Shown here one piece after another: positions 18,090 to 64,000 of a stretch of 64,000 bases of DNA (position 1 is the first letter of the stretch; each line of letters starts with the position of its first letter). The stretch spans positions 16,633,415 to 16,697,414 of the forward strand of contig CM037840.1 in the NCBI GenBank assembly GCA_021234535.1, written 5' to 3'. The translations under genes and the position numbers were made by a program. The notes under the pieces are model-generated. The model saw only the letters and a program-made list of their open reading frames with translations. It was not told where the DNA came from and did no database searches. This stretch comes from Stichopus chloronotus (Eukaryota > Echinodermata > Holothuroidea > Aspidochirotida > Stichopodidae).

Positions 18090-18375
18090 TTTTTGGTTTC
18101 GATGATAAGTGTATGTATGTATGTCCGTGACGCACTACCTTGTAAACACGATATCTCAAGAAGGGAAACTTGGACAGATCTCATATTTGGTATGTAGGTG
18201 AACCATATTGAGAAGAAGAACCCTATTGTTTTTGGTGGAGGTCAAAGGTCATTTGGGGTCAACAGAGGTCAAATTGTGAAAACCTTGAAAACACGATATC
18301 TCAAGAAAGGAAGCTTGTAGATGCTATTATATCAGATTCAGAAAAAAATTCTGCATTTCTGCATTCTGGTTTAAG
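18090..18375 (+). repeat. Dispersed repeat with AGGTCA direct repeats
   Basis: It starts at GGTTTCGATGATAAG and has the words AACACGATATCTCAAGAAGG and GGAGGTCAAAGGTCATTTGG. It ends with TTCTGCATTCTGGTTTAAG. Related copies occur near 27.96, 30.4, 45.0, 46.2, 49.95 and 51.25 kb. Its second tandem copy is at 19692-19977. The ends are partly inverted versions of each other in fuller copies, which suggests a MITE-like element. Confidence 0.6.
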
Positions 18376-19240
18376 TGTAAGGCAAGCAGTTTTGGATATA
18401 CAACCTAGTCTAATAACACTATGCCAGTTTTATGCATATGTTTAGATGGTGTAATATCCCCCCAATATTTGTCCACACCAGCCAAAGAAACTGTAAAATT
18501 CTGCCATAGACTGACTGTACCCCTGCTTTATAGAAAATGTTTCAGAATTTGGTACTGTATTGTCTGGATTGAGTAATCCATTATCAATATGAAGACCACG
18601 GGTGGCGCCAGGATTTGTCCGACAGGGGGACCAATAACTTCATGCCCCGAGCAAGACAGTGAGCTGACAAGGAAAAATTTCCAGCGCGCTTTGCACGCGG
18701 AAAATTTGTTAGTATGTGTTACGAAAAAATAATTGAAAATGTCAGTTATTCTACGGATTAAGGCTCCCCGACAAAACTGAAAAAACTAGCTTCCCGACGG
18801 GGGGAGTCGTCCCCGACGGGGGAGCATATCCACCGAATCCAACATCATAGTGTTGACACCAGGATTTTAACACCGCAGCTTTTGTAGTATGTTAACCTTT
18901 TGATTCACTTGTTCTGTTGCTCTTGTAATAGAAAGACCCAAAATAATAGATCTGTGTCCAAGTGTTTTCCTTATAGTGAATAGTAGCTAAACTGCTACAC
19001 AACTACCCAAGAAAGGCAGTCCTTCCATACTATTGAATTGCAGAAACGTAGCATCATTGGGATTGATACAGGGATAAGTGTCTTCTCCCTCCTTGCAGAA
19101 AGACTTAAGTTTGAAGTACAATTATCACGTGCTGAGTTTGCGGACAGCTGTGTCAATGCTGAAAAGAACACATTGTGTTGGCTTTGCCGTATTTGCACAC
19201 GTGTACCTTCTCGCATGCAATAGCAAATTCACCTGCCTCG

Positions 19241-20842: not shown

Positions 20843-20846
20843 AAAA

Positions 20847-36421: not shown

Positions 36422-36864
36422 CTATGGAGAAAAATAGATGATTATGTCCAATGTGCCTTAGGGATCAGACTGGATAAATTGTTTCTAGCTTATATTACAT
36501 TCTAATTCATTAGAAATGAAGTACAAAACATATGAACAAAAGTCAACCTGCTGAAAACATGACAGATTACAAAAGACAGAACAAAAGAAATATAATTTAC
36601 CAGAGTGGATGTTGCCATTTCCAACTATGACAAATTATTCACAGCATCATCATGACATAGCACTTTGATTCTAGGAGGCATGGCATGCTTAGGTTCTGTT
36701 GTTCGTGTTTGTTTTTTTTTTTTTATAGACGTTCTGGTACTTGCCATACTAGACATGGAAAAAGTTTACATGAGAGTTTCAGCAATGTATTTTGCAGTTT
36801 TCCTGTCCCTTCAAATTGAACATTTCATCTAGAATAGATGCTACTTGAACTATGAAAAGCATAC

Positions 36865-41685: not shown

Positions 41686-42165
41686 CTGCAAGAAATATGA
41701 GAAAGGTTAGTATAGCTATAATAACTGAAAAGTAGTATACTGTATATTGCCTCAAAGCACACACTGTCTTTCCTTTTTTGATGCAGAGAGCAGTTATTGA
41801 GGAGGAAAATTTAATTACTGCTGACCCTTTAAGACCCACCAAACTGAGTGAAAATAAGCTGTGTAGTTGGCTCAAAGGTGTTTTTCTTCCTTCATTTAGC
41901 ACGTTCCAGTTTAATATCATTGATGGAGCAGTCATGGAGCCAACATTTTAAGAGCAGCTACCACACTGTGACTTCATAACGACTGTGCAACTGAAATAAA
42001 TGAATACATTTAGCCCGTTCTGTAGGAAGGGATTGCATGCAAATGAAATGATGAGGCAAAAGTCTCATTTTCTTGACAACTAGATCCTGAAACGGCCAGG
42101 CATATTCTTTTTCATGTTTTGACATACATCCTAAATGTTACATTGTCAAACTCGTCACGAAGCTT
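41686..42165. other. Short spacer between SET exon and the 20-kb element
   Basis: There is no exon in this stretch. The missing upstream SET exon would be expected here or, if the element split the gene, beyond 62584. Confidence 0.4.
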
Positions 42166-42169
42166 TGAA

Positions 42170-42770
42170 ATACGGAAGCTTAAAAGTGCCATCAAGATAA
42201 GTATATCTTTGCCCCCATAAGTTGACAATTTTCAGCAAAATGTCTACATAACGAGATAATATCTCATCAAAAAACAGAAAAATGATCAATTGTTCAGTTG
42301 TGTTATCTTAACAACTCAACATTTTTCTGCAAAATGTTCAAATGACAAGTTATCACATCTCATCAATTCGACAATTTTCTGCAAAATGTCTAATTGTTCA
42401 TTTCTTTTTGAAGTGAGCAATTGCACAATTTTCTGCAAAATGATCAAATGACAACTTATTACATCTTGTCAATTAAACATTTTTTTGCAAAATGTCTAAT
42501 TGTTCATCTCTTTTTGAAGTAAGTAATTGAACAATTTCCTGCAAAATGTTCGAATGACAACTTATTGCATCTTCTCAATTTAACAATTTTCTTCAAATTG
42601 CTGACTTGTTAACTTCTTTTCTAAGTGAGCAATTGAACAATTTTCTGCAAAATGTTCAAATGACAACTTATTACAACTTGTCAATTCAACATTTTTCTGC
42701 AAAATGTTCAAATGACCACTTACCACTTTTTGTTAACTCAACAATATTCTGCAAAATGTCGACTTCCTCA
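42170..42770 (+). repeat. Left terminal inverted repeat with tandem array
   Basis: 42170-42360 matches the reverse complement of about 62390-62580 with few differences (one C missing, a variable A-run, a few single-base changes). 42290-42770 is an array of about ten units with the core TTTTCTGCAAAATGTT. Two unit types alternate: one followed by CAAATGACAACTTATTACAT, the other by CTAATTGTTCATTTCTTTTT. Confidence 0.75.
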
Positions 42771-44984
42771 GTTCTGGTAAGCTGTTCCTCGTAAACCACC
42801 TGTACATATACTGTACAGCCAGGTTGATGATCTTATTACGTACTGTACTATTACAGTAATTTGTCTGTAGACTTCACAGAAGTAGCCGGCCTAATCCGAA
42901 TGTCCGATGTAATTAACCGAAACAATCATGGCGGAGGAAACAATCCAAATACTCTTGACCTGTAGGGGCCATTCAAGATTGGCTTCCGCCGGTAGGGGCA
43001 AGCGGGGGAGCGATATAAAGACTTTAAGCCGTCAGGTAAATGTTGTCGTCTTATATAGCCCATAAGTAACGATCACGTCATCGAAAGATAATTTTTGATG
43101 CCACTAGCTACTCTAACATGACAGTCTAACGTTTCAGTTGCTAGGCTACTGGCTAGTCAAGCCTAACGCAGAGTAGGCCTAGCTCCCTCCGTTTTAAATT
43201 CCAGTGGTTTCACGTACGTTATGATTGTCTATGTCTCAGTCAAAGTGATAGTAAGGGTACATAGAATGACACATCCCCTAGAAGGATGCACCTGTAGCCA
43301 TTGCTGAGACTGTATTACTTCAGAGAACCTAACCTATTTTGTTAAAAACAGAATTACATAATTCCTTAAACATAGTGTCGCTGATGATCGAAGCCTGTCA
43401 CTCCTGCCAGTCCTGGTTCTTTGAGGTTTTCCACCCTTGCCAATAGGCTAGGCTTCAAATCCTACTTTGAAATGTCACTTGATTACAAAACAACCCAGAA
43501 GGACCTCAAAATACCACCATATTTAAAAATGATGATGCACTGGTAGACATAAGTTTACATGATTACATGTTTACACCTTATATGCAACGTGTCAATTTAG
43601 GTGCATACAGGTACTTCTAACAGCAGAAATCATGGGTTCATGCTGTTCTCGACTTTAAAGTGAGAAGGGACAGCACAGGAAATTTTTTCATATTATTACA
43701 TTTCTAAGGTACTGCTTGTACTTAAAAACCCCATGTAAATGAGTGTTTTGGAAATTTTACCAAATTCATAGGCCCCCTAATCATCGATCAAATCCTTAGG
43801 CGCATCATTCTAGGTGCATATACTCATTGAGTGAAGTGATTTTAATCAGACCAGTGGTCAAAAAGGAACCCGGGGGGGGGGGGAGTTGATTAGGCCATTG
43901 ACTACGTTAGATTTTAATGCATTTAGGAATATTTTTACCCCTGATTCCCTGAAAAAATTGTTTGCCCCACTTCATTAGGATGCAGGTTGTACTTTCGTGC
44001 AGCTAGGCTTTAAAATAGATATAGCTTAATGCTGTATGTCATGCCTATCATGGGACGCACCAAAATATGGGAACCCACTGCAACAGTTGCTGACTCCCCC
44101 CTTCCAACAGGTGTGTACGTTCCATTTCACCCCATTTCACAGTCTTTTTTCTTGCTAACCAGTCTAAAAGTTTATATTTTACCATCCTTAAGCCACCCTC
44201 CCAAAAATGCATTCAGTATTGCTCTTATAAGTATGATACTTTTAACTATTAAACTAGGATAAAAAGAAATTGATTTGCAGTCTGCTATGGCGCATTTACC
44301 AACAAGTAAAAATAATAGCCATGACATTAAGGACAATCAACCTCACTTGGAGTTGTCTTTGTTTTGACCGGCCCTCCAAATTGTGGGAGGCAGGCATGTA
44401 ACTGTGTGCTGTCGGTGTTCCAGTTTCAAATTAGCTTAACTTTTATGAAAAAAAGTATCCTACTGAGTTGAAAAAGCTGAAAGAACACCCGGCGGATGAG
44501 TACCAGGTAGAATGCATGTGCAAGTAACAGGATCCCAGTGTCGGCGGCATGGCGAGGTTGATTGATCGACCCACGCCGAACTACTAAGGATCACGGGATA
44601 GCTGCTGACACTGACCAATCACAGGTCAAATGGTTGACCTACGTAATGGAGTGAGGCGGTTGCCCATCCGTGATCTACCAATCATGAAAGGTGCAACCTT
44701 TCTGAGAACAGGGTCTAAGTTTACTATTTTTAATGTATTCTATTGTCTAATCTGACTGTCAGAGGGAAATAAAGAAACAGTTAAATAAATCTGGGATTCT
44801 GGGGTAAACACCGGAAGACTGAACTTTGTACGACCTTTTGTGTACGGTGGGGTAGATTTACCATCTCTATACAACAATATTACTCCATTGAACAGGGAAC
44901 TCATGAACACAGAATTTTAATGATTGACAGTATCAAATAGATGCTCCTGTGATAGTGGCAAGTATAGGCCTTTATACGTTAGAT
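42771..44984. other. No supported gene inside the 20-kb element
   Basis: No exon match was found. A G-run lies near 43871-43880. The plus frame at 44029-44262 is unconvincing. Upstream exons of the RING gene could lie here but are not recognisable. Confidence 0.4.
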
Positions 44985-45640
44985 TTATTGGTTTCGATGA
45001 GAAATCTATGCAGTTATGATTGCATGTATGTGTACGGGTGCAGACGGTATGCATGGTGTGTGTTTGTGATGCAATTAATTTGTTTACACAATATCTTGAC
45101 ATAGGTAATTCATAAAGTTCTCTTACTTAATACATTGATATCCCATATCAAGTAGAACTATATAGATTTTGGAGGAGGTCAAAGGTCATCTGAGGTCACC
45201 AGAGATCAAACACTGAAAAACTGAACATTTCTTGCATGCAATGAATACTCTTCATCGTTGCTGTGTAGGTTTGGCATATTGAGAGGAAAAAACCTGTTTT
45301 GTTGCAGAGGTCAAAGGTCATCTGGGGTCACCAGAGGTCAAATTGTTAAAAACCTTGTGCACATGATATCTCCAGATGGGAGTGATGGATACTCTTGCAC
45401 TAAATGCAAGGCATTTTAACACATGGTATGAAACTTTCTCTTCTTGAAATATGACAGGCACAAGGTTTTCAGTGTTTTCCCAGTGTTTCACCTCAGGTGA
45501 TGACCTCAAATCTTTGGACCAAAAATAAACCCTTGATTCTTAGTTTTAGAGTTATATTTGAGAAACAAACTTAATAAAGAATCTGAAATGAGTACATCGA
45601 AACTACAATGCATTTTTGCATTCTGGTTTAAGATACAATA
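44985..45640 (+). repeat. AGGTCA-rich MITE-like repeat, fullest copy
   Basis: The left end GGTTTCGATGAGAAATC is at about 44990 and the right end ACATCGAAACTACAATGCAT then TTGCATTCTGGTTTAAG is near 45593-45633. The ends are inverted versions of each other (GGTTTCGATGA / TCGAAAC). It contains two blocks of AGGTCAAAGGTCATCTG(A/G)GGTC at about 45176 and 45308. Confidence 0.6.
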
Positions 45641-46139
45641 GAGTCTTTGTCCAAAACCAAAAACAGCTCAACCTTGGGCAGCTACATCAGCAAGCACTGT
45701 TTTCTGTGAAGTAACAGGAGAGACCTGTGCTAGTGTGAAGTCGCGGGAGATCCTTTGCTGCAATTAAGTCACAGGAGGTTTCTTTCTGTCAGCTCACAGC
45801 AGTGGATTCCTTTATTGCATAGTTGATCAGATAAAATTTGCACATCAAAAGTGAAGTCACACTTAGTTGCCATGAGCAGTTTCAAGGGTAGAGTACAGAT
45901 TTTATACTTGTTTTGTTTCCTATTGAGTAAATGTGGGCCATTGATTTTACTTGTGGTGAGAGGCCAACTTAGGTCACTACCATCAAGCTGTGGGGATCCT
46001 AATGGTACGGTATGACTTCACTACACAATAGTACTGCAGAACATTTAGCATACACAATTCTTCTCTGGTAAATATTAGTCTAAATGTTATGTAATGAATT
46101 CATCAAAACTTTACTAATGCATCCTGGCATTATGGTGGT

Positions 46140-46810
46140 TTTCTCATGTTAAAGTTAGCATTACAATGGCATGTGCGGTTAATTTGTGTTGCCTACCTTG
46201 TAAAACATGATTGATCAAAAAGAGAAGCTTGGACAGATCTCATACATGATAGTATTGGTCTACCTTATTGAGTCCAACAAGTCGGCTAGCTGTTATTGGT
46301 GAAGGTCAAAGGTTATTTGGGGTCAACTGGAGTCAAAGGGTAAAACCTTGTAAACACAATACTGCAAGAAGGGAAGTTGGACAGGTCTGGTATTAGGTCA
46401 GTGTTGTTTTGCTGCAGATCAAAATTTGTTTGGGGTCAATGCACGTAAAATTGTTAAACCAGCTGTAAACACAATATCTCAAGTTCAAGAAAAGCTTGGA
46501 ATGATTGCACTTTTGGCATGTAGCCTACTGCTTCCAGTGAATATGACAGGTGAGTCTGGGCCAGTTGGCATCAAATTGTAAAAATCTTGTAAAAAACTAT
46601 ATCTGAAGAATAGAAGCTTGGAAAGATCTCATACTTGATCTGTTGATGCACCTCGACGAGTGCAAGAATTAGATACCTATTGATTTGGATAGGGTAAAAG
46701 ATCATTTGGGGTTAACATATCCTCACCTTATACTATACATCAGATTCAAAATAATTTCATGATTGAATCATCAAAACCACAATGCCTACAGGCTTTCCAG
46801 TTCCAGATAG
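46140..46810 (+). repeat. AGGTCA-rich MITE-like repeat, decayed copy
   Basis: The copy contains AAGGTCAAAGGTTATTTGGG, several CACAATAT/ACACGAT-like CTCAAG words and a right end ATCATCAAAACCACAATGCC near 46788. It ends about 130 bp before an exon of the RING gene. Confidence 0.5.
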
Positions 46811-46937
46811 AAGATTGCTGTTCTCTCAGAACATTGTACAGTTGAAACCTCTGTAACTGGTTCATAGTGATTGCATAAAATTTCAGCACAGACCTAAATA
46901 CTAAATGTTCTCTCTCTCTTCATTTTTCCTCGTTCAG

Positions 46938-47011
46938 AATCAACAAAATTATCTGCTTTAGTGAAGAACCTCAACGTTGCTCTAGTCCATGGAAAGAAAG
47001 ATTTTGATCAG
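46938..47011 (+). CDS. RING gene, upstream exon
   Basis: The 74-nt exon has an acceptor TTTTTCCTCGTTCAG before 46938 and a donor GTAGAG after 47011. It reads STKLSALVKNLNVALVHGKK and ends DFDQ, in phase 0. At least one more exon lies upstream. Confidence 0.5.
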
Positions 47012-47988
47012 GTAGAGATTACACTATGTATCCTCCATTGTTTGATTATGGGCTCATTTCCATTATAATATTGATTTCAAAATTTTCTATAGTTTCTCAA
47101 GACCGGTATGTACAAATGATAAGGGAGAGGGCAGGTTGAGGATATGGGTTGAGACACTGACTAATGTAATTGTTGTCCTTTCATTTGGGGAGAAGGGAAA
47201 CACAGTTTGTGGTGCCGAAAGCTTTAGTTTTTAAGTAAACTCAGATTTTGCTGGAGTGCAGTACAGTACCGTATTTGATCCCTTCACGGGGTTTGTGCAG
47301 CAATTAACTATAAGTTGCAAGTTTTTTTTTTTCTTTGTTTTTCAAAAAAAAAAAGACAAAAGGAAATAGATTACATTGATTGTCAAGCCCTTTATTGTGG
47401 CAGGACCAATGTAAATGGACAGTTGACTATTCAACTTCACAATTAGTGCATGAAGTTATTTGCCTTGGTGCTGCAATCAAGACAAATTGGGTGTCAGAGG
47501 ATGGATAGGTTTGGAAGATGCATTACAGGTGTAACGATTGCTGGTGCCCTTATTCAGCTTGTGTCATAGGCTATTTATAAAGTTAATGAGCAGCTTACAT
47601 GTAGTTTTATAATGTTCTCAGGTCATGGTCACTTCAAAATATCTGTAATTAAATTTCTTTTCAAGATTGTGTTGGAAGTATGGCATACTGTATTGAACTG
47701 GTAGTTGATCAAGTACAGCTCAAATTGACTGTCACAGGGTGGAGATTCAGCTTGCCAGAATGATTGTGTCAGTGCAAGAAAATTTTTCTTGTAGAGATGT
47801 ATTGCAGACTTGATTCTGCAACTATACTTTAGCAATCATTTGAAGCACATTTAAAGCGAATTATAAGTAGCATTCACAAACATTTTGTAACTGCATGTAT
47901 ACTGACTATAAAGCCTTCAATTATGAAATCAACATTTTGATGTTAGGTTGTAACTTTGTTGTTGTTGTTTTATTTTTAATTTTCTAAG

Positions 47989-48328
47989 CCTGCTGAAAGG
48001 AAACAGAAGGCTCTCATCAAAATAGCTATCGGTTGGCAGCACTTCAATGAGCAGAGAAGATGTTACACCCAAGTGAAATCTCAAAGTGGAGGGGGCGTGA
48101 TAGTTGCACAGTTCCCAAGAACTGCCCGATATGAGGATGTTATGACACTTGCGAAGATGTTGTTTTTTCCAAGTGGGTAAATCCTTTAGGCATGGTGATG
48201 CTGACAATTATCAGTTCAAAATGGCTAACTCACGAGGAATTGCAGTAACAGAAAGTGAATTTTGCTTATCAACCTTGCATGCTGATGGTAGAAGCAGGAC
48301 CAAGCTGTACTTGTTGTCCAAGAAAATG
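47989..48328 (+). pseudogene. RING gene, conserved-domain exon with +1 frameshift
   Basis: The acceptor is TTTTAATTTTCTAAG. The exon reads PAERKQKALIKIAIGWQHFN to LAKMLFFPSG, where a G-run carries one extra base. It continues in the shifted frame as KSFRHGDADNYQFKMANSRG to KLYLLSKKM. The 3' edge is best explained by a GC donor (GCAAGT), a known minor splice type. The 340-nt length is 339 plus the extra base. Confidence 0.55.
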
Positions 48329-49711
48329 GCAAGTATCAGATGATGACCCCCCAACCACCACCAGAAAACGATAGTAGCTGTATGTATAAACCATTTTTTG
48401 AAGGTGTAAACAAGGAGTTGGTACTCACTCCCTCCTCAGATGCAAGTCAAAAATGAATGTTTGGTCATCATGCTGGAAGCTCCATTATTGTGAGTGCACT
48501 TTTCCACGTAAAATATCAGAAATACCTAAAAATGTCAAAAATGAGCTAATATTTTGGCATGGTGTGCTTGTAGTTTTCTAATGTGCTGTTCAAAAATCAG
48601 GCCTCAGAAAACTCATCATTACCTTCTGCTCACACTCAATCAAACCTTTGTGGACATGATGACAGGAAACATTACAAATTGTATTACAGGCTAAGTTTTC
48701 CTTATGAATTCTTTGCAGGCATCAGTTTGAAATGAATGTTGAAATTGAACAGCTTGGTTGACAGCTTGGGTGCAAGCTACTTCAGAGCCCCCCCCCCCCT
48801 TCCTCCCCGAATTTGTACCATCATATGTCCTTGATCCCATCTCAAAATTAGTCTAACAAATAATCATTCTTCCAGCTGTTAGTCAGTCCCACTGGTTCGG
48901 CTGTTAAAACACATCAAATTGTAAATCTGCTTAGGGTGCATCCAAATTCATTTGAAGAAAGGTAATTGCATTGCGTTATTCTGAATACATTTAATTTTAA
49001 AACATCCCAGTCTTAATTCTGTCAGTACATTTCCCATGGACCTCACTAGGGCACAACCTCTGGACCTCCTCAGAGCTCCTTAGATGGAACACTGAATCAT
49101 GTACTGCTATTCATTCAGTCTATCTACCTGGGTGTTGTCTAGGCTTGACAAAATCCTGACTATGCCATATATGCACCTGCTCATATTCCATATTGTTCAA
49201 GAAAACCAGTACAAGAAGACGTAATTAGATACAAATTCTGAAAAAGCAATACAGTTGTAAAACTATAATATGAAGCCTTAAAAAAACCTAACTGACATTT
49301 TTTTTTATTTGACAGAACTGTAAATATAATTATAAATGTGTGTCACATGTAATGAGGAAACAATAGTTAATTTAAATGTAAGCTGAAATCAACATGTTAA
49401 TAGACGAGATTGAATACTCATTAATTATGTGCAGATTTGAAGGCCTCTCATTTATGAAGTGTGTGAGAGATATTTGCCTATTTGCTCACCTTCAGTGCAC
49501 TTGTAATCTAGCCATATAAAAGCACTATGAGTGAATATAGCCGCATATAAGAATGTTCCAATAAAATAGAAAACTTTTTGATGATGACTTAAAAAAACTA
49601 GTATGTGTTTTATTCCCCTGACCTTCTATAACAGGAATGGACAAACTGAACCAAAAACTAAGAAATAATGCTATAGATAACCTGATATCATGTTTTTGTT
49701 CTTTCTATCAG

Positions 49712-49846
49712 GGCGTAGATGAATGTCAAACCATCAAAAGTGATTCATCGTCATCAGATGATGAACCACTGAATCCATTTTTAAGTGGCCTTTTACAAGA
49801 TGATATTCCAGGTCCATCTGATGCCTGCTCCAGTGGTACCCCTACA
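49712..49846 (+). CDS. RING gene, acidic linker exon
   Basis: The 135-nt, phase 0-0 exon has an acceptor GTTCTTTCTATCAG and a donor GTAAGC. It reads GVDECQTIKSDSSSSDDEPL, then PFLSGLLQDDIPGPSDACSS. Clusters of Ser followed by acidic residues look like casein-kinase-2 type sites. Confidence 0.55.
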
Positions 49847-49944
49847 GTAAGCTTCTACTAATAACCTGAAAGATAAATTTTCTGAAATCATAATATGCGC
49901 TTACTGGTTCATGCTAGTAATGAGCTGCATTGTGATAACAGTTG

Positions 49945-50890
49945 TTTTTGGTTTCTATGAAAGAGAAACCTATGCGGTCATGTGTGTGCGTGTGTGTGCG
50001 TGTGTGCCCTTGTTTTCAGGTGGGATTGAAGACCGAAACAGTAGATTTTAGGTCCTCTGTAGAAAAATCAATAGGTTGCTCGGCCCTCTCAAGATAAGCA
50101 ATAGACAGTCTATTGTCAAGGTTAGGTTGAAGAAGAAAAAACAAACAAAAGCACAATGAGGTCCTCAGAATGAATGGAAAACTAAGCCGTGTGTGTATGT
50201 GTGTTTGTGACGCCCAGCTCGTTATCGCAATATCTCAAGAAGGGAAAGTTGGAAATTTCCCAAACTTGTATATAGATGCCCCATATTGAGGGAAAAAAAA
50301 CCTATTGTTTTTGGTGGAGGTCAAATGTCATCTGAGGTCACCAGAGGTCAAACACTGAAAATCTTGTTAAGACAATATCTCAAGATAGAAATGCTGGATA
50401 CTTCCTATACTTAGTAGGTCAATTGATCATATCAAGTGGCGGTGGAGTCAAGGTGTAGTGGAAGTGGGGTGGAGGTCAAATGTCATCTGAGATTACCAAA
50501 GATCAATACTGAAAATCTTAACATAATAACTCAAGGTAGGAATCCTGGAAACTTCTGGTATGTAGTTTGTCAATGTATGACATTAAATAGAAGAAGTGTT
50601 TTGTTCGTGGTGGAGCTCAAAGGTCACTCTGGGTCAAAGGAGGTCAAATTCTTAAAATATCATGAACATGATAATGCAAGAAGGGAAGCATCTACATAAC
50701 TGATATGGAGTTAAAGTTGTGCCTTATTGAGCAAAGCTAGCTTACTGTTTTCCACTGAGGCCAACAATAATTTGGGATCAACTGGGGTCATGTTGTGAAA
50801 ACCTTGTTAACATTAAAGGAAGCTTGGACAGATGTCATATTTGATTTTCAGATGCACCTTATTAGACGCAAGAGGCCTATTGATTTTGTT
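49945..50890 (+). repeat. AGGTCA-rich repeat cluster within an intron
   Basis: The cluster starts GGTTTCTATGAAAGAGAAAC. It contains three AGGTCAAA(T/G)GTCA-type blocks near 50317, 50473 and 50611 and repeated CTCAAGAAGGGAAG words. It may be two or three copies joined. Confidence 0.55.
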
Positions 50891-51249
50891 AGAGGTGAAA
50901 AATCACTTGCCTGACTGAGAGGAAAGATACGTTTTTACACGTAACTAGATTTTGGCCATAATTGGAGGCATGCATTATAAAAAAGTTAAATAAGAAAGGA
51001 TTATGCCTTTTTTTCCATCCCAATACAATACACCACTCTGTTTAATGTTGAAGCACTAAAAGACAAATAAAACCATGTATCTCATATTGTTATGCAATCA
51101 GAGATATTATCTTCACTAGGATCCTAATGAATTTGACCGCATTGAATAAAAAGTGGCTCCTCACAGCAATAACTTACCTGCATTTGGTGGTCAATGACTA
51201 TCTGAAAATTTGAAAGAATTGTATTTACCTCAAAAGGTAATTCAGAAGG

Positions 51250-51825
51250 ATACTTATTGGTTTTGATGTACCCTTTGTAGTAAAGATTTCATGAGTGTGT
51301 ATGTGTGCATTAGTTTGTGTATGTGTACATATGTATTTTTGTGATGCTTTGCTTGTAAACATATCACAACAGGGAAGCTTGGACTTATGTCATGTTTGGT
51401 ATATGGGTGTACCACATTGAGAACAAGCACCACATTGTCTTTGTTGGTTATCCAAGCTCATTTTGGGTCACGGCAGTGGTCACATTGTGAAAACTTTGTA
51501 AACATAATTTCTTAAGAAGGGGAGCTTGGACAGAACTCATTTGTACTACTGCAAGTGGGCATGCTACACTGAGTGCAAGAACCCTATCGTTTTTGGTCAA
51601 AGATGATTTGGGGCAACATAAGTCAAATAGTGAAAACCACAATTAGTGAAAAACACAATATCTCCAGAATCGGACCTTTTACAAATTTCTAATTTATTAA
51701 ATAGGGCTTGTATTTAGTTTGTATCCTGATTACAGAATATAGTCATACATTTTCAGGTGGGGAGCAAAAGTGTTCTGCATCATCAAAACCACCCAATATC
51801 TCCCAATTCTGGTTTGAGCCATGCC
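51250..51825 (+). repeat. Dispersed repeat copy in the last intron of the RING gene
   Basis: The left end TTGGTTTTGATGTACCC lies near 51255 and the right end ATCATCAAAACCACCCAATA near 51779, followed by TCTGGTTTGAG. The AGGTCA words are mostly lost in this copy. Confidence 0.5.
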
Positions 51826-51994
51826 TTTTCATCCTCCCTTTTCTTGGCATGATAACTTTGTGGTCTAGCCTACATCATTAGCACTGCCATGTAATGAATT
51901 CATAGATCAACCTATGCATATACTCTTTAAAAGTAGCTTACTAATTACTTATCTTACTAATCTTGCAACCAGCTGTGTGTCACATTTTTTGCAG

Positions 51995-52177
51995 GTACAG
52001 TTTCATGCAAGCAACATCAGAAACCACTGTCAGATCTGTATGGATGGAGAGAAGAACAAGTTCTTCATCCCTTGTGGACATGCGGTTTGTGGTCAATGTG
52101 GTGATCGGATCTACAACGGGGACAGGAAGTGCCCTTTTTGTAAATCCTGCGTAGATAAACAGGGCACACTTTTCTAG
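51995..52177 (+). CDS. RING gene, last exon with C3HC4 RING finger
   Basis: The acceptor CACATTTTTTGCAG lies before 51995; phase 0 in; stop TAG at 52175-52177. The Cys/His spacing is C-x2-C (CQIC), then C-G-H (PCGHAVCGQC), then C-x2-C (CPFC), a compact C-terminal RING that binds two zinc ions and recruits E2 enzymes. It ends KSCVDKQGTLF. This exon has no lesion. Confidence 0.75.
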   Translation, partial: VQFHASNIRNHCQICMDGEKNKFFIPCGHAVCGQCGDRIYNGDRKCPFCKSCVDKQGTLF

Positions 52178-53139
52178 TGAACATGTTTAGAGGAATGGGT
52201 TGGGGAAGGGATCTGGTGTAGTAATAGTAATGGAGGGGATGCATGGGATGCTGTACACATTGTTTTGTTTACTTGTTCATGTGGGTAATAGAAGCAAGTG
52301 TGAAGATGGATATGGAAGGGGGAGGGGGGCTGGGTAGGTTACATTGAAGTGTTAGTGAGATTTTACACCTGGATATGCAGGAAGAAGTTAAAGCATACGA
52401 ATGATGGAAAAGATATTTAGATGTGTTAAATCATATTTACGTAGACTGAGTATATCATTTGGATCTGCACTTAAAAAGGGAGTGGGGAGGGGAGGCAGAA
52501 TATGAAGAAATGTAATCATGGAGAGGATGCGGGGTGAGAAATATCATTACAGGAATATTGTTGGTAGTGTAACCATAGAGTTCATTGGTCTAAGCTTCAC
52601 AGTGCTCTGACAGAAGGTTTCATGTAAACAAAACTAATACACGATCATCATGAAATCATTGTGGATGTTATATGTGACTGATAATTCCTTTCTGATCTGA
52701 TTAGAGATGTGTTGTGTGGACATGTACGATTTTAAGAATTTGTTTCTTTTATTTTCCCTAGGAAGCAATAGGCAGTTGGGTTTTTAATTTAACCTTAAAT
52801 CACTATTGCTCCTTGTGTTGCATGAATGAAAGCCAAAGAAAGAATCGTTTAGCAAACATATATTACAGTTCAGTTGTTAATTTTTTGTCGTTATTGGATT
52901 GCTTGTCCACATAAGATATTTATTTAGATTTTTGTGACTGTTTTTCAATGTTTTTGTTTTCATATATTTTTAACGGTTTATGAGTTTGTTGACTATTTGT
53001 GTTCTTGTCGTTAAAATAATTCTCACCTTGATTTTCTGAATTTTTATCATTGATTTTATTTCTTGATTGCAACCTGTTGAAAAGTATCAAAATCATGACT
53101 TAATTTACCTGCTGGCCAGGAAAATCATTCTTGAATAAA
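52178..53139 (+). other. Likely 3' UTR of the RING gene with AATAAA signal
   Basis: The sequence after the stop is AT-rich and free of the dispersed repeats seen in the introns. AATAAA at 53134-53139 is a plausible polyadenylation signal about 960 bp after the stop. Confidence 0.35.
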
Positions 53140-56100
53140 AAGCATCAATCAGTTAATTGAAGATTGCTCTTTTTTCTTTGTTTTGGTAATAGAATTAATG
53201 AAAGAATAGTATGACTGTGCTTATGGAAGGGAATTCCCATTACTTGCTCTACCCTGAACTAACAGGAATCAATGTCATCATATCTGGACCAATAGTAGTA
53301 AATGTTTGACAAGATCCAACTCAGCAGTATAAGTTTAGAATGTTTGAAGAAGTCATTGTCACTTTGATGTATTCAAATAATTCCTCGGTGACATTCAGAC
53401 AGAAGAGTGGAAAGAACATTTAACAATGAAGTTGGGGGGAGCTATGTCTCACTGTACAGAAGAAAGAAAATACTAATGGCCAGCCCAACAGGAGTGTGTC
53501 CAATAGGTACGGCTGTAACCGTAAAAATGTAAACATAGAAATTTGTTTACTGCACCTTTCACAAAAAATAATGAACAATTTTCTAATAGGAGGGGATCAG
53601 ACAGATGAGACGGGAGTCTCACTTTGTATGGAGGAACCCAAACCTATCAGTGGCTGAATTTTTGACAGGACAGTGTGAGGGTGTCTCTGAGGGAAAGTTG
53701 TAACATATGCATGATGCAATATATGAGATTTTCTAGCATCTGTGGGACCAGATTAGTACACTTCATACCACTTTTAATAATGGGTCCTTTAAGACCTTAG
53801 TAGACCTACTGTGCAGTGTGACCACTTTTTAGAAGTCTTCGCGTGGACCTTCTTTCTAAGGGGAGCGCCACCCATCGGCGCAGAGCGCACCGAAACTTTT
53901 TGGCTGAAAACACACCCAAGATCACTGGAAATGGCATTTTCAAGTCTTTTTTTTTTTAAACCTAACCCCACTCACTACAAAGAAATATAGCTTTTTCTTT
54001 GGGTAAAAGAATGATTGGAGAATAAGACCCCATTACCTCGGCCATCATAGCGACGCTACAGATTAAACAATTCCACGCAACTTGGTCAACGAGGAGTAAC
54101 AACTTAGACGGTTAATTCTGATGGGCACGCTTCAAGTGCACCAAAAAATGGCATATGCAGCACGTTTTTTTCCATTGCAAAAGACATCACATACATGGCA
54201 GTCCGCCATTATGGAAGTCTATTTCCTTTCCCTACCTACCTGATTGAAAGGTATTTTTTATGAATTGAGAAGGGGAGGAGGAGATATGAATGTACCATGC
54301 ATGACAGATTATCTCACAGTACACTATCTTCGACGCCGAGGAAGGCTACATTTAAAATTATGTAGATAGGCTGCAGGCTCAATTGCAGTGACAGCACACT
54401 AAGAAGGCACTGGGTATGGTATCGCGATTCTAGGAAGAAGCTCTACACTGAAAGACAAGGTTATCATCTACAATGAAAAGAGGTTACCCCCCCCCCTGCG
54501 TACTACGTACTGCGTATCCAGTTGTACAGTATCTGCAGTTCTCATCGTTGTTTAGCAATATTTCTGCTTGTGCTTGGAACAAAAACGTCACAACCTTCGG
54601 TTAGCTCTAATCTGGGTGTTGCAGTTCTAAATCTCTAGGTGGGCAGCATTTTTTTTTTTTAATCCTAAAATTTTCAACGGAAGGGGGGTTGCTTCCTCCT
54701 CCTTTATGTTTATGTATGTTGAACGAAGTATGAAAGAATGTGAGTAAATATGAAAGTTTGGTTAATATGGGATCATTTTCCATGATTGCGAAAAGGTTCT
54801 ACATAGCCTGATACACTTTCAATTTCGTGACAAAGTAGCGTAAGGGTAAATTAAGATTCCGCCGTTAAAATATGTTCTTCAAAGAATCGGGCAAAAGTCG
54901 ACAAATCTGCATTTGTCGTCTTTGCTACTTATGCTGTGTTTCTGCTTAAACATTTCGAAAGACTTTATTTTTCTTGGGGAGGGGGAACTAAGTGCAGACT
55001 GGTTGCTGGCCTAATGAGGGGTAGAAGTGAAATAAGTAATGGAGACGTCAGGGGAAGCAAAAACTGTCATAGCCCTATCTTTAGAAAATGTGTAACAAAA
55101 ACCAAGGTATTATCTATTCTTTTTCATTTAATCTGTTATTCTGTGTTCTCGGTGATTTGTAATTTTGTGGGTGTATGAAAAAGGAAAAGACTTTAACCTT
55201 GCAAGCTTGAATATCGTTAACTCGATAATTGCACGTTTGAAACAACACCGTTAGTCAAAGTACATGTGGGGGGGTGGACTACAGCGGACCACAGCGACAA
55301 TATTGTTCATTTCATTTTGAACTGCTTCGGAATTCCACAATCAATGGATGCATGATCTCTATTAATTAAAAAATAATCTGGACTAGAAAGGTCAGTCTAT
55401 CCATTACCCTGTTTTGTGCATTTACATAACACGGTTAACAGAACATTGCACTTTGGATGTGTAAATGACTTTAACGTTGGAATATGAACACCGATATTTG
55501 TCACGAAGTTCTCTTATGAACGTTTAAAAGCCTAACGTCGTCGACATGAGTCACTCAACAAAACTGTGCTGGAGGCATTTGTTGCAATGTTCGCCCCCAT
55601 CCACAAAATTTCTCTGTTACGAAATGTGTGTGAATGGAAGAGGGGAGGGTTCGATGTTATCCCCCCCTCCCCCTTATTGAAATGTGGAGAACGTGTCCCT
55701 TCCCCCCCCACCAGGATTGACGTCCATGGCATCAAGGAAGGATTTTCATGAATGGTGAGCACCATCTCCGTACTTTTTGGCAAGGGTTTCTGTTGTTAAT
55801 GAAGGAGGATAACCAGTTGTGACATACATTTACATAACTTCCCACATTGTCCATTTAATTGTTACTATTCATGCAATGACTGCAAACTGAAAGTTTTACA
55901 GTGAGCTCCCCTTGACACTATCTAAGCGGACCATCAGTTGGCGCGTGTTGCACGACAGAAGACTTAATAGATAACAATACTTGTCAGGCCCAAGGAAATG
56001 GCACTTCGCCTATTCTCAGACTACACTGAAGTAGGGACGCCGTTAAATGGTATTTTGGAACCCAGTGCCAAACGTTGAGACGTACATACAGGCGTCTGTT

Positions 56101-58522
56101 AATTTTTTTCAACAGGGGATGGGGTCTGCCCAGAGGACGCACTCCTACCCCTTTTGCGTCCACCGTACCGATCAGGACTGTCTAGGTGAAGCGTCACCAT
56201 CAGTTGGTGTGGATCATAGAAGGATGATCTTTGACTTTAATACATCCCCCCCACCTCGGATGGCCGGAAACTTCCCATGTGTCCTTAGCTGCACGTACCC
56301 ATCCTTGAAGTAAGGGATATCATGTCAGCAATTTCTCATTTAATTAAAGGGAAACACCAATCTATGACAAGAGTGGGAGGTAATGTGGGTTGCTTTTCTT
56401 TAAAATATTTGCACTAGTATCAGATCGCGTTAGACGACCGTGAGTTAAGCTTCAAAAAGATCTTAAGTTTGGCCTAAGTACAAGACCAACCCCACTGAGC
56501 GGAGGCCACCATCGATTGATGCTGAACGCACTGACTTCTACTGGAAATGGCGTGTCGAAAACGTACAATGGCATCCTCGACATTTTTTTCTGTTTACCTT
56601 ACCTCTTAACGCCACCACCTACAAATAAATGTAGATTAAATACTGTAACAAGTAAATTCATTTTTGATCAAATATGATAATAAGGGGATTCCCCCATCGT
56701 AACTGCCTACCCTCCTGTGGCCACTTCAGCGCATACGATGTACAGGGGGTAAGTAGGGAGTATAAAAAAGTGGCTTCGTTACGTTAGAAAATGTGCAACA
56801 GCTTACGCCGCATGGATAAATTTTCAGGTATTTTTCTTGTATGTACTTCGGCGCACCACCGACGGCCTCGATGGTTCTGTCCACCGAACATTGTACGCCC
56901 GCATGATATAGACATGGTGTAGCCCCCAAAGGGCGTGATATCAGTGATGCGCCCACGGAATATGGGGAACTCCCACAAACAGTTTATGCGAGAAGTTTTC
57001 GTATTTAAAAACAAAACACACACCCATTTTGGTATTTTTTGTGACTTGAATCTTTCCAGGCTATCGTCATTTTTTTTATGGGGGGAGGGGGCAAGTTATG
57101 CACTGAAGAGCACGGGCCCGAGGAAACTAAGTGTGGATGAGTATAGAAGTTGTATGAGAACATTTGATACTCTGTCTCCCACCTATCCAGAATTGGGAAA
57201 CCCACCGACTGACACCCACGCGTTTTCCAGAGGATAAACATTGCTTTCTGGCTTGTGGAACGTAACTACGTGTCCTCCCAGATGGGCGTCCTGAAAAGCC
57301 GGTTTCCACTGTATACACATGTATTTCATATTTTACATCAGCAATTGTCCAAAATCCTTTATACGACCCTGAGCAAAATAAAATATGATCGCCCTATTGC
57401 AGTGGTGTATCGGATGAGGGCAGACTATGCCCAGCAATATCGTAGAGGCGGATTGCAATGAGTTTGTTGTCACTTCAAGTGAGAAGACTATTTAGATTTC
57501 TCATGAGAACATGCATCGGCGCTGCCAGACACTAGCAATTTGGGAAGGGGCAAATATCGTCGTATGTTGTTAAAATTGAACTTCTAAAGACAAAAGGGCT
57601 TAACGACGCCTCCATCTATTATCCTAGCAGAGCGCCACCATCCGTCTGAGCATACATGTAGTTTTTTTTCTGCCAAAAAACGCTGAACAGATCATCGAAA
57701 TTGGAATGTTCGAAACACTTTTCTTGTTTTTATTTTACGCCTCACCAGATTCCCTGCAAAAGGGTGTAGTTTAAATTTGTTTTCAAGTAAACTTATTTTA
57801 GGTCAAAATATGATTGGCGTGTCCCTCATGCAACTCTCGGCCCCACTGCAAACTAAGTTTGTCGTAGCTGGGATTAACAGTTTCGTTCTTTATTCTCTCT
57901 CCTCCGTTCCCCATCTCCTTCGATTTTTTCCTCTCCTCCTCCTCCCCTCTTTTATTCTGTTCTTAAATTTCATCGTGTTCTCTTTCCTATCCTTTCTCTT
58001 TTCTTTACTTGTTTCCTGTCTGTGGGTGTGGGCTCTCCTATACATAGCATTTTGAAAGGGAAATAGGGCGTTCAATGCACTTGAATTGTATGACCTACAA
58101 AGATAAATCTTTAATAATATTTAAACCATTCAATAAATACTCGCAAAAGTTTCATCACCTCCAAACAAAGATATATCTTATTGTATAAGATGAGAGTCGG
58201 AAATTGCATCATCCGAATTTTTGAAAGTTTGTGGCAACAAATTGTGCTTGTGAAGCTCTGGATGTATACCTGTGAGAAACCATTTTCTTGAAATGAAGGC
58301 TATCTTTCTTTCCTTTTTCTTAAATAATCTATCATTCTGTGGCCACACATTTTGTTTTTTTCTGTGCAACAAATGTTCTATCTCTCTTTAACCTGTTACA
58401 CCGTGGCTTAAATTGGGAAATGTATTGTTTCACTTGATACCAGCTTACAAACATTGCTACTACATAGTCATAGTTAAAGAATTGATTTGGGGACATTTGT
58501 CTACAAGATATCATATATATAA
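53140..58522. other. Unannotated interior of the 20-kb element
   Basis: No gene is supported. The motif AGCGCCACCAT and variants recur near 53863, 55925, 56190, 56505 and 57631 (and at 1591 outside the element), probably one decayed repeat family. Runs of C or G occur near 54487, 55268 and 55705. Several short open frames on both strands lack splice edges or family matches. Confidence 0.4.
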
Positions 58523-58600
58523 ATTCGAATCAAATCAGCTCAATTCAAATCACATGACATCAAATCCTATCACATCATATCAAATCAAATGAATCATGTC
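58523..58600 (+). repeat. Degenerate short tandem repeat (CAAAT/CATAT type)
   Basis: The words CAAATCA, CACATGA, CATCAAAT and CATATCAAAT repeat about every 10-12 bases over 75 bp. Confidence 0.6.
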
Positions 58601-58824
58601 TCAAGGGTAGATGCTAAGTACTGATTATTCTCTGCATTATCGATCATTTAACAAAATTAAGTCACTTTACTGCGAGACTGTTTTATTAAGCCATTGCTCA
58701 GTACAATTTTTATTTGAGTTATTAATCTCTGAAAACAGCGTCCAATCACTTAAGAATTTCAATTGACAGAGTTGATGAAATCTCAACCAAAGCAGAGTTC
58801 CGATAATTCAAAGGTTTGTTATTT

Positions 58825-60101
58825 CTAATCTCTAAGAATGTCCACTAGATTTCGATAAAGGTACAACGCTTCTTCCACAGTGCTTGGCATGCGACGATCA
58901 GTTATGTTTCCAAATATCTCATTCAGACCGGCAAGAAATTCCTGGCTACAACCATGAAGAGGGTAATCCGAACAATAATCCCTTTGAACCTCCTCTGAGG
59001 CAAGCAGTGGCATTTTCCAATCATGTGAACCATAAATTTCCGGTGTATAGTACATCAGGTCCGGCTTTCCGCTTGGAACCTCAATTCCAGTTTGGTATCG
59101 AATTCTGTGTTGGTTCCATTCTTGCAGAACTTTATCAAAATCCCTCTGTATGAGATCAGTAAAACAAAATCTGAGACAGTCAACGTGAACGGCACTGCTG
59201 TTGTCAAAGGTTCCTTCATCCTGCAAAGCTCTGAAGAGGTTAATCCAGAAATTCGTAGAAGCACGCTTGAGTTGACCCCACCATGCCTCAGTCCTTTGAT
59301 TTGCAGTGGAGCGTCCGTACAGAAAAGATTTATATCGTCTAAATGAATCTTGATGACGCCATCTTAAGGATATTTGTAAATCTCTGACATGGCAATTTTC
59401 TGTACCCCTGTCTGCACGAACAATTTTGGGGACACCTTCTAGGTGTTTTATGTAGCGTAGAAAGAAGCGATGAACCTAGGGTTATTATTGCTTGGTCCTG
59501 CTTGTAACCAAAGAAGTTTCCTCGAAAAACCGTCGATTGCAGCGTGTACTGCAATACCAAATGTTTTTAACTTGTCGTACCCGTCTATGTGTACTAAATA
59601 ATTTGGTCCTGGGCATGTATAAACCCGGCGTGCTATTCGTCTACCCCTGCGTCTTTCAACTCCAACGGGATCCAGTCCGCTGAGCAGTAAGCGCGTTATT
59701 TCTTGGGTAACATTTAGGTTATATGAGGTGCGAAGACGTCGCCACATTGCTCGATAACCCATGGCCTGTCCACTTCCTCTGATTTCGTTTGTTATTACTC
59801 TTACCAGTTCGACAGGATCCAACGGCAAATCTCTTCGCCTTAGCCTATTACGTATTACTCGACGAAGCTGCCGTAAACTCAGAACAATGCCGTGTCTCAA
59901 AGCAAGCAAACAAAGAATATCTGTTCCTGTGTAACCATGGCTCAAGTAGTGCATGATCAATGCGTTTCCCAGGTGCGGAACAAAACCAATGAATTCAGCC
60001 GCTGTGTAGTCTGGGGGAGAAGCTGTCCCTTGTTGAAAAAGCACCAGTATCATAAAAGCCTGCAAGCAGAAGAGTAAAACTTCCTGATGGGATTCTTTCA
60101 A
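58825..60101 (-). pseudogene. DDE integrase (rve superfamily, IS3/Ginger-like), one frameshift
   Basis: Minus-strand frame 60101-59448 gives an N-terminal helix-turn-helix region (GYTGTDILCLLALRHGIVLS, LRQLRRVIRNRLRRRD) and a second helical region (GYRAMWRRLRTSYNLNV). The core follows: NYLVHIDGYDKL (first Asp) and AAIDGFSRKLLWL. After a one-base shift near 59455 it continues KIVRADRGTEN (second Asp) and STANQRTEAWWGQLKRA (Glu), then DLIQRDFDKVLQEWNQHRIR to a stop at 58825. The full D-D-E set is present. About 425 codons is normal for the 'integrase core domain' family scattered in invertebrate and fish genomes. It reads inward from the right end of the 20-kb element. The first Met at 60101 is provisional, since an in-frame Met also lies at about residue 17. 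Confidence 0.75.
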
Positions 60102-61714
60102 AACAAACTTTCATTCAATGTTTGGATATGACCAAGTGCATGGAGAAACCAGCTTCCTTTCGGGCCATGCTTATAGTGGTTTCCATGGGTGAAGCTCAGT
60201 GGCGGCACATGGGGAGGGAGATGGGGAAAATCCCAACCTCAGCTGAGATATGTAGCGGCCTACCAGGTACACGTATATGAACAAAAGATATTGCATTCTT
60301 TCTGAGATCCTGAGACATATCTCTCCCCAAGATATATAACTCCGGCAGAGTTTAGGAGGGGGGTCCTTGGATCTTATCGGGACTTTGTCCATACATCCCA
60401 TCAGACTCTACTTTTTAATGTTTTCAAATAACTTAGAGAAATACCGAAATGCATGATAATCGATTACAAGTTTTGCATGAGATGAAGGATCATGAATCAA
60501 AATGTACCTATCCTGAGATTTGAAGCCCGAGTTTGTCAGCCAATTAGGATGTTTGTCCCACCTTCCTCAAACATAGATCATCAATAGCATGATTTACGGC
60601 ACCAGCAAAAAATGAACGTAGATGAAAGCAAGTTAAATAAAGAACAATATGTCGCGATGGCACACTTAGTCATTGCCAGAATGGCATTGAGGCAATTTCA
60701 TTTCGGCAAGTATAGAATTTGATATTAGTGTTTCGGTGACAAATTACGGCGAAAAGCTCCTAAACCTTCCCCGGGTTCACATACATTAGTTCTGGATCGA
60801 CCTTCATACTTGGCGACTAAGGTTTTCTTTGTACTAACCCCTTCTTTAGTGGCATTAAATTTGCACACAATGATATGCTAAAACCGTAGAGCTTCCGGTG
60901 GATTCGCCCGGGCCCCGGAACCCCACCGAGTTTTTTCCCATTGTACATGGCTACATCAAGCCCTTGGACGGGCCTCACGGACGCTACTCGATGAAGCCAG
61001 TGCTGCAGGCGAAATATGTTACCACTAGTAATTCTATTTTGACCTCCATTTGCCCACCCCTATTTTAAAATCCTGGTGCCGCTACTGGGAAATCCATAGG
61101 CCTTTTGAGGTAGGGGCCTAAACTGGCTAAGGATCCGTAGTCTTTCAATATTCTACACTACTTCATATGCTTCAAACAAGTTTAACGGAATTCCACACAT
61201 ACACTGTAATGAGGGATTGGGCTGCGGGGGATTCTTGCGGATTGAATTACCATGACTTTCTAATTTCAACACACTAAACGTTAGGAGAAGCCTTTCCATC
61301 GGTATCGCAACAGATTGCTGTAAACCTTAACTTGCCCATTGAAACTGTCCTTTTTTATTACGACATCTACCAGAACAAAATCTCATCCCTTTCCATTAAA
61401 AAAATAAGCTAGGCAGTATAGCTTACTTAAATTTCCCTTACATGTACAGACATACAGGACGTACTGGCCTTAGCCTGTCTTACTCATTTACGAACATATA
61501 AAATTCATGAAAATGTAGCAAAACTTACAACGAAAAAGAACATGATGCAGGTCTTAGACAAACACAACGGTGGAGGAATCGTTCATACAAGGATATTATC
61601 TTCTTTAGTTGACCATGAAACAGTAGAGAGGTCTGTAACAGCTTCTTAAAAGGATCTGCTACTGCATGCAGAGGTGTGCGTAGCATTAAAAATCCAAGGT
61701 ACGATAAGTTGTAA
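60102..61714. other. Region between integrase 5' end and right array
   Basis: No coding match was found. This is where a promoter and 5' UTR for the integrase would lie. No clear TATA context was identified. Confidence 0.4.
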
Positions 61715-62580
61715 TTTTAACATTTTGTGGATAATTGTTCAGTTGATCACGTAAAAAGAAGTAAACAAGTAAACATTCTGCAGAAAATTGTTTAATTGCT
61801 CACCTACGAAGAACGCAATAAGTCAACATTTTGCAGAAAATTGTTGAATTGACAAGATGTGATAAGTTATCGTTTGAACTTTTTTTCAGAAAAATGTTCA
61901 AATGCTCCATTAGAAAAGATGTGAACAAGTCAACATTTTGCAGAAAAATGTTGAAATGACAAGATATGATAAGTTGTTATTCAAACAATTTGCAGAAAAT
62001 TGTTCAGTTGCTTACTTACTAAGAAAGTGAACAAGTTAACATTTTGCAGAAAATTGTTCAGTTGCTTACTTAGGGAGAAAGTTAACAAGTTAACATTTTC
62101 CAGCAAATTGTTGAATTGATAAGATGTGATAAGATGTCATTTCAACATTTTTCACAAAATTGTTGAGATGCTCACTTAGAAAAAAAGTGAACAAGCATAC
62201 ATCTTGCGGAAAATTGTTGAAATGACAAGATGTGATAAATGGTTATTCGAACATTTTGCAGAAAATTGTTTAATTGCTAACATAGATAAGAAGTGAACAA
62301 GTCAACATTTTGCAGCAAATTGTTGAATTGACAGGATGTAATAAGTGGTTATATGAACATTTTTTAAAAAAATGTTGAATTCCTCATTTAGAATCAAGTT
62401 AACAAGTAAACATTTTGCAGAAAAATGTTGAGTTGTTAAGATAACACAACTGAACAAGTGATCATTTTTTTTTTTTTTTTTGGATGAGATATTATCTCGT
62501 TATGTAGACATTTTGCTGAAAATTGTCAACTTATGGGGCAAAGATATACTTATCTTGATGGCACTTTTAAGCTTCCGTAT
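61715..62580 (-). repeat. Right terminal inverted repeat with tandem array
   Basis: About 15 units carry the core AACATTTTGCAGAAAATTG, the reverse complement of the left array. They alternate between tails ATTGACAAGATGTGATAAGT and TTGCTTACTTAG. It ends with GCTTCCGTAT at 62580. The array is longer than the left one (about 750 against 480 bp), as expected if unit number varies. Confidence 0.75.
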
Positions 62581-62584
62581 TGAA

Positions 62585-64000
62585 AGGCAAAAATATACAT
62601 ATTTTTCTAATGACTGGTAATTCTATGACATTGCAGAAAACCTCCCATATTGTGTTTACTCTCTAATCCCATATAAGCCTTTTGGCAATGTCAAGAACGA
62701 TAGAAAGACACATCAGCCAACAAACTCTAAGGTTTGTCACAGTGGTTTAGCACAACAAGGTTTAACTACATATGACAGGTAATTACCACCAATTTCTTTC
62801 CTGGTAGCGAAAGAAATATCGAAACACACTGTTGCTTTCCTCTTCTCTTTTGTTTCCCTCTACGCCTGAAATCAGTTCCCCTTGGTATGTCAGCAGAAAT
62901 TCACCTTTTTCAAATATCTGTTGTGCAAAAACACCTCTCCCTTGAAGAAAAGTAAGTATGAATGTAAATTAGTTGCATTCAAAGCTCCGAATTACAGTAA
63001 AGTACCTCTAGAGGGTACTGAAGCTTACATGGAAATCACAGAGATTAACTTTGTTCTAAGGAGAGCATCATGTGTTTGATGTTCACAACATGACCAGCTT
63101 CAATTGAGGTTGGACCCAATCCCTGGGGAGGGTATAGGGTTTTACAGCATTTCATGTCCTAATGCCTGCTAGTTTAAGAATTTGCACAGCATCAAGTACA
63201 AAAAAAGTCATTATATTACCATCTATCCGACCTGCAGTGCATTTATTTTTACCATATTAAAGAATTGATGTAATATGTACTTACGAAAATTATTCTTCAT
63301 GATGTTTTACCAAAACAATTGCAATATTCATACTTGTACCTGGGGAATGAAAATCCTGAAACAGCTTACCTTTTCCTGGGGAATTTTGTACAACAAACCC
63401 AGGCGGATCCTGTCCAGTGTAGGGCTCAAAGTCAATATGAGCCCTACCGCATTTTCTGCATGTTCGCTGCATGTTCGCTGCATTAATATGAAACAAACAT
63501 AGTAATTGTTAAAGGTATGCTGCACCTGAACAGTCACCACAGTCCTTGTGGACTACAACAAAGTAACACATATTTAATCATCGGCAATATAACCAATTTA
63601 AGAAAGTTTTATCATAGTCAATGTAGACAGAGTGGAAGCACTAGCAGACCAATGAAAGGAAATGGAGAAGAAGAAACAAAGGGAAGGATATAGGAAGAGT
63701 TGAGAAAGATCGGGAAATAAACAAGAAAAAGAGTGAAAACCAGGAACAGTCAGCATGATGAACGAAATGGTGGAAGTTGGAGCACTGGTGTTTATATAGA
63801 CTGTAGGCAATTCAAATTTTAATATCTCACAAAACCTGATAGTACCATTTAAAAAGTAAAATATTCTGTGGACAATGCTACACTGCGGTAAATTTTCCTG
63901 AAATTATCTACCAGACTGGTTCATGCAAAGTACATGGTGTATCATGAAGTGGACAATAACAATGGGGAAGGAAAGAATGAACAGGAGAGAAAAAAAAAAC
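62585..64000. other. Right flank; no supported gene
   Basis: One weak minus-strand exon candidate is listed separately. A purine-rich stretch lies at 63630-63780. The SET N-terminal half was looked for on the minus strand here and not found. Confidence 0.4.
63370..63477 (-). CDS. Weak exon candidate with CxxC motif
   Basis: On the minus strand, acceptor TTAATGCAG and donor GTAAGC bound 108 nt reading NMQRTCRKCGRAHIDFEPYT, then GQDPPGFVVQNSPGK. Splice edges are good, but the start overlaps a short tandem repeat (GCAGCGAACAT twice) and I know no family. Confidence 0.25.

Follow-up and report, generated by a model that had tools for sequence, protein, structure and literature searches.

As described in the excerpts of the published accounts used here, complete IS3EU families of DNA transposons always have TA..TA ends and usually a 6-bp target-site duplication (TSD), and GingerRoot has been joined with IS3EU in one lineage (PMC10045372). 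The IS3EU elements of rust fungi have TAYGG..CCRTA ends and terminal inverted repeats (TIRs) of more than 30 bp, and can contain genes for alpha-kinase and TET/JBP (PMC12730594). Styx of Zymoseptoria, an IS3EU-related element of ~7.9 kb, has a 36-bp TIR, a 6-bp TSD and several genes, and its degenerate copies moved in trans (PMC10853768). Here we describe a 20.4-kb segment in a 64,000-nucleotide stretch of the genome of the holothurian Stichopus chloronotus (assembly GCA_021234535.1, contig CM037840.1, positions 16,633,415 to 16,697,414 of the forward strand; hereafter the window), which is very probably one DNA transposon of the IS3EU/GingerRoot kind and which appears to be a relative, unusual in its size and elaborateness, of a little-studied transposon group. 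Judged from sequence, IS3EU-type elements of such giant size, with arms of evenly phased repeats and a RING gene of the IAP type, appear to be new. Titles and abstract openings of the open IS3EU literature hold no such element, a scope under which subscription papers or Repbase could still hold one.

The element occupies positions 42171-62579 of the window (20,409 bp), limits set by its TACGG...CCGTA ends and by a 6-bp duplication, TTGAAA, at 42165-42170 and 62580-62585. A preliminary description of this stretch had proposed near-identical inverted ends of about 190 bp, and these hold: with up to 3 mismatches allowed, the window has two copies of the 21-bp end, at 42170-42190 (+) and 62560-62580 (-), against a mean of 0.00 matches in 100 shuffles, and the outer ~190 bp of the two arms align with 176 of 185 bases identical. 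The 4-bp duplication TGAA proposed with them had to be given up. When boundary offsets from -6 to +9 were compared, the earlier boundary, one base off, gave those four matching flank bases, the TACGG...CCGTA parse gave six, and the remaining offsets gave at most two. The 6-bp parse is upheld at other genomic copies, with 16 of the 22 short copies introduced below matching at exactly 6 bp.

Empty sites of the kind anticipated in the preliminary description also exist. What seem to be the two halves of one dispersed host repeat lie on either side of the element, at 42051-42164 on the left and 62586-62705 on the right. With the window flanks joined through a single TTGAAA as query (172 first-look candidates, 40 scored), the search returned 42 rows, 24 of which run from position 100 or below to position 140 or above, across the junction, at 69-80% identity; crossing was read from the row spans, and the sites are paralogous, not allelic. 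Of the other 18 rows, three are accounted for by both flanks of the window copy and the C11 duplicate, and 15 do not cross by that margin. Given the spanning rows, the insertion apparently cut a dispersed host repeat in two.

Both arms are built on one design. Each starts with a terminus of ~50 bp, opening with TACGG, and continues as copies of a 21-bp near-palindrome, AACAATTTTCTGCAAAATGTT, with ten sites in the left arm (42171-42775, ~0.6 kb, +) and 15 in the right (61690-62579, ~0.9 kb, -) at up to 6 mismatches. Outside the arms, the window contains nine such sites when 6 mismatches are allowed, one when 5 are allowed and none when the limit is 4. Spacing after the first site is mostly 52-54 bp, giving half-units of ~53 bp and a period of 106 bp. 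The half-unit is close to five helical turns and the unit to ten, from which we infer that the sites should lie on the same helical face.

The genome searched comprised 719 Mb in 267 contigs, and the left end found 84 matches in it (907 first-look candidates, 40 scored). Scanning 36 loci yielded 22 distinct short two-ended copies of 974-1136 bp. Copies with one end past the 4-mismatch filter (e.g., L014 and L030) are left out of this number, and the genome probably holds many more short foldbacks. Site arrays are kept in all eight of the short copies examined for them. Solo insertions of the end sequence, each with its own duplication, had been named beforehand as evidence that would speak against a single element, and they turned up in form only, the ~1.1-kb copies with duplications being two-armed foldbacks, likely non-autonomous passengers that consist of arms alone. 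The search for further pairs of ends with target duplications was positive, for these 22 short foldbacks and for large copies on C8 and C16.

The large copy at C8:32708699-32719714 is 11.0 kb long with GTTATG on both sides; nested in its left arm is a 1.08-kb foldback with the duplication ACTCAA, at a place where the window arm is uninterrupted. On C16 we started from a right end at 9276740, with the flank GTATCA, and predicted its partner from it. The partner pattern has three matches genome-wide, against none for the reversed control; one is on the same contig, another is the left end of the copy C12b and the third is on C2. The C16 element thus delimited measures 24,892 bp, is flanked by the duplication GTATCA, and carries the RING exon at 100% together with an integrase whose break falls at the same residues as in the window copy. 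Interior sequence next to the arms is common to C5, C10 (two copies), C12b and C8, and single arms adjoin window-like interior at C5, C8, C10 and C12, where the flanks differ from those of the window. C12b has left-half sequence, in part common with C10 and in part with C16, for which the window gave no match; the window copy has therefore probably been shortened inside from a form of ~25 kb. At the left end, flank and arm of C12b and C16 are 100% identical over 746 bp; the right flank of C12b is different.

A 21.0-kb copy on C11 was considered as an independent second copy and rejected. From 31.5 to 49 kb of the window, left flank included, it shows 1 mismatch and ~45 gap columns; beyond ~49 kb it diverges by ~1% and then runs into an unrelated right flank. 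With its near-identical left flank, C11 is a segmental duplicate, a recombinant or a misjoin. Recombination between copies or assembly misjoins could explain both C11 and C12b, whose integrase frames are free of stops. C11:1655500-1687127 corresponds to window positions 31546-62579, and a 1-kb C11 stretch (L057) placed opposite window positions ~1-1000 has no match to the window. C10:4205755-4278114 holds two inverted large copies with left ends 72 kb apart. Past their shared part, open reading frames (ORFs) there resemble a long terminal repeat retrotransposon by eye, and apparently lie in the left part of each copy.

An integrase near one end had been proposed from the start, and it is found at 58825-60110 (-): an IS3-like DDE integrase/transposase of PF24764 in two overlapping frames, 59448-60110 and 58825-59475, which jointly form the PF24764 core with a frameshift within 59448-59475. 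Its coding start is perhaps at ~60057, at a splice acceptor seen by eye. With its integrase frameshifted, the window copy has probably lost its autonomy. A search with the read-through protein found 253 relatives, of which the best 120 were listed; the best is P0001, 96% identical, which itself matches PF24764 at E 9e-35, and the next-best among the matches listed is from Holothuria leucospilota, at 74%. D158, D217 and E258 are present in all 16 aligned relatives. HTH_21, which we take to be the IS3-type helix-turn-helix, is precomputed for 11 of the best 120 of the 253. Domain scans reported no zinc-binding integrase (HHCC) domain up to E 1, and neither a profile search of the PDB nor one of NCBIfam gave a match. 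In a structural model of P0001 (predicted local distance difference test, pLDDT, 81) the order of strands and helices reads to us as RNase H-like, and the best fold matches of the model are IstA, TnsB and retroviral integrases, with MuA also matched; TM-scores across the full length are low.

Convergent with the integrase lies an IAP-type C3HC4 RING exon with a stop (51995-52177, +), whose nearest relatives in the PDB are the IAP-family RINGs of BIRC3 and BIRC2. A possible acidic exon is predicted upstream of it, at 49712-49846 (+), from splice signals seen by eye and in phase 0. Integrases at 92% or more occur at seven loci (window, C16, C11, C12b, C5 and two on C10), and all seven have a convergent RING exon matching at 80% or more and without stops; C11, one of the seven, duplicates the window.

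The same plan recurs in a second family. On C18, an end, TACGGTGGCC, is followed by 11.2 copies of a 105-bp repeat, and its partner end, with the flank ATAATC, was predicted and then found at 20032100; the 13-base partner pattern has 14 matches genome-wide versus 27 for the reversed control, and it is place and orientation that decide. The inverted arms are 89.8% identical over ~1.1 kb, and the element measures 28,908 bp with the duplication ATAATC. As in the window, there are a TACGG end, an array of repeats (here of 105 bp), an integrase (~50%) and a RING. The C18 and window repeats have only short stretches in common, including the TTTGCAGAA core, recognized partly by eye. The end at C5:4692001 is the same as that of C18, with the flank TAATTG. 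The ~50% integrases at C18:20007307 and C5:4695256 each have a weak RING match (45% and 39%), at distances of 9.9 kb and 8.8 kb respectively and convergent in both; six more weak RING matches in the genome adjoin no integrase match. In this family, and in at least one related to it, the RING constitutes a second gene.

Set beside the described groups, the element has the IS3EU duplication length (TTGAAA in the window, with 6 bp also at the 16 short copies, C8, C16 and C18, and not at C11 or C12b), the TAYGG..CCRTA ends, present as TACGG..CCGTA in both families, and an IS3-like DDE integrase that lacks HHCC and has its first D 100-300 residues from the N-terminus (D158/D217/E258). Extra genes beside the transposase are likewise known from some IS3EU members, where the excerpts name alpha-kinase and TET/JBP; unlike the elements described there, those found here reach 20-29 kb, have arms of ~0.6-1.4 kb made of 105/106-bp units, and carry an IAP-type RING as companion. 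GingerRoot shares the 6-bp TSD, mostly TA..TA ends, an integrase-like transposase and a supposed occurrence in animals, and its summary, as excerpted, mentions no such size, arms or RING gene (PMC10045372). Styx is alike in its 6-bp TSD, several genes and relation to IS3EU, and unlike in its ~7.9 kb and 36-bp TIR. IS481EU, with TG..CA ends and a TSD of ~4, ~15 or ~25 bp (PMC10045372), differs from the TACGG..CCGTA ends and 6-bp TSD seen here. The preliminary description was right to see a single element with foldback-type tandem-repeat ends around an integrase and a RING gene, and its view that such an element could not be named is superseded, since the traits match IS3EU/GingerRoot.

Other large or foldback elements share some of these features. 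Foldback elements (Drosophila FB, sea-urchin TU) have tandem-repeat inverted ends, arm-only copies, TSDs of 8-9 bp and MuDR-type transposases; the first two features are found here, and the 6-bp TSD and IS3-like integrase are not those of Foldback. Polinton/Maverick elements are 15-25 kb long, with an integrase, a 6-bp TSD, AG..CT termini, a protein-primed PolB and capsid genes. The window element resembles them in size, integrase and TSD, and its termini are TACGG, not AG..CT; no polymerase or capsid domain was found in the six ORFs scanned inside it, where the longest stop-to-stop ORF is 220 aa. Ginger1 and Ginger2 have 4-bp TSDs and TGT..ACA-like ends, unlike the 6-bp TSD and TACGG ends here.

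How such an element might move can be sketched. The integrase would recognize the TACGG ends and, presumably, the ~53-bp-spaced near-palindromic sites that fill the arms; many transposase units, or a partner protein, would coat each arm and pair the distant ends. Both ends would then be joined to the target with a 6-bp stagger, leaving the 6-bp duplication, and movement would presumably be by cut-and-paste. The RING would act in the element's favour, perhaps through ubiquitination of some host factor. We put forward, tentatively and as something rather short of an even chance, a fuller reading: that these giant IS3EU-type elements (20-29 kb) represent a lineage of animal transposons not described before. 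Their arms (105/106-bp units, ~53-bp half-units around a TTTGCAGAA-centred near-palindrome) would keep their spacing more than their sequence and form a helically phased scaffold with which an integrase can pair ends 25 kb apart, and the IAP-type RING E3 ligase would be a dedicated second protein for transposition or counter-defence.

Foldbacks are common in this genome (the 907 first-look candidates, 40 of them scored), and the majority of those looked at have a TSD each, as would suit a reading in which two opposite foldback insertions bracket host DNA with integrase-like and RING genes. Such an origin is scarcely credible for the window: the outer flanks share an exact 6-bp TSD, the junctions between arm and interior recur at other loci, and paralogous empty sites read across the junction. 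The C16 element, with both ends, its own TSD, integrase and RING, and the empty sites together largely refute it. Another reading takes the RING gene for a passive passenger, acquired in a single capture and without a role in transposition or survival. Several ~50% integrase loci have no nearby RING match (for example C5:4328093-4329300, C16:10211062-10212193, C16:9488386-9489462 and C1:24763600-24764647), which weakens the case for a dedicated RING and strengthens that for a passenger. Against this, the exon is free of stops and convergent in 7/7 copies at 92% or more, and in the second family a RING of 39-45% identity lies near the integrase; we regard a purely passive role as unlikely. It is quite improbable, finally, that the elements constitute a new superfamily, related to IS3EU/GingerRoot and set apart by phased-array arms and RING. 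Two families whose integrases are ~50% identical do share such arms and a RING, and neither feature appears in the excerpted IS3EU descriptions; however, TACGG..CCGTA fits the published TAYGG..CCRTA, again as excerpted, and arms and cargo can vary inside superfamilies.

Besides the RING-less loci, several observations weigh against an IS3EU-type transposon as we read it. IS3EU membership is judged from traits, not from alignment to Repbase IS3EU proteins, and long tandem-repeat arms are absent from the IS3EU traits in the published excerpts. The rve (P0001) and HTH_21 (P0016) matches score under the Pfam cut-offs. Six of the 22 short copies do not have an exact 6-bp duplication: two have one mismatch and four are unmatched over six bases (L020 has a 7-bp match, L024 and L026 seem shifted by one base, and L013 has none). 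Among the large copies, the interior of C8 is partly N and neither integrase nor RING was matched there, homology at C5 ends mid-integrase, and C11 and C12b both lack a matching duplication, the left flank of C11 being that of the window copy and the left flank of C12b that of C16.

If the reading as an IS3EU-type transposon holds, PF24764, a common and little-described animal integrase family, would be placed in complete transposons that have ends and target duplications and carry a companion gene, and foldback elements would be linked to an integrase of the retroviral/IS3 kind. The system also offers a test of the part that long, evenly spaced site arrays play in pairing very distant ends. 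A transposon-borne RING ligase common to two families suggests that ubiquitination may aid transposon survival.

Beyond the host, the element end and integrase relatives were sought in viral contigs, which led nowhere, and the search of genome contigs gave just L001 and L002, both in bacterial metagenome-assembled genomes. L002:1852-3811, on a contig assigned to a sponge symbiont and perhaps sponge DNA, has an integrase relative of the PF24764 type with a stretch of TATGG and short tandem repeats close by, and its other end is missing; as a lead only, it hints that similar arms occur elsewhere.

Elsewhere in the window there is an exact 1606-bp tandem duplication (17639-19244 and 19241-20846). 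Dispersed repeats rich in AGGTCA occur inside the element (45057-46717, 50189-50909 and 51320-51702) and outside it (18106-18335, 30528-30647 and 40205-40345), all perhaps host or nested repeats. On one strand, two ORFs flank the element: 36779-38596 (-), tyrosine-recombinase-like by eye with no significant Pfam match, and 62783-62968 (-), which resembles a SET-domain exon (E 3.7e-5). The two could be parts of a single host gene that has the element in an intron.

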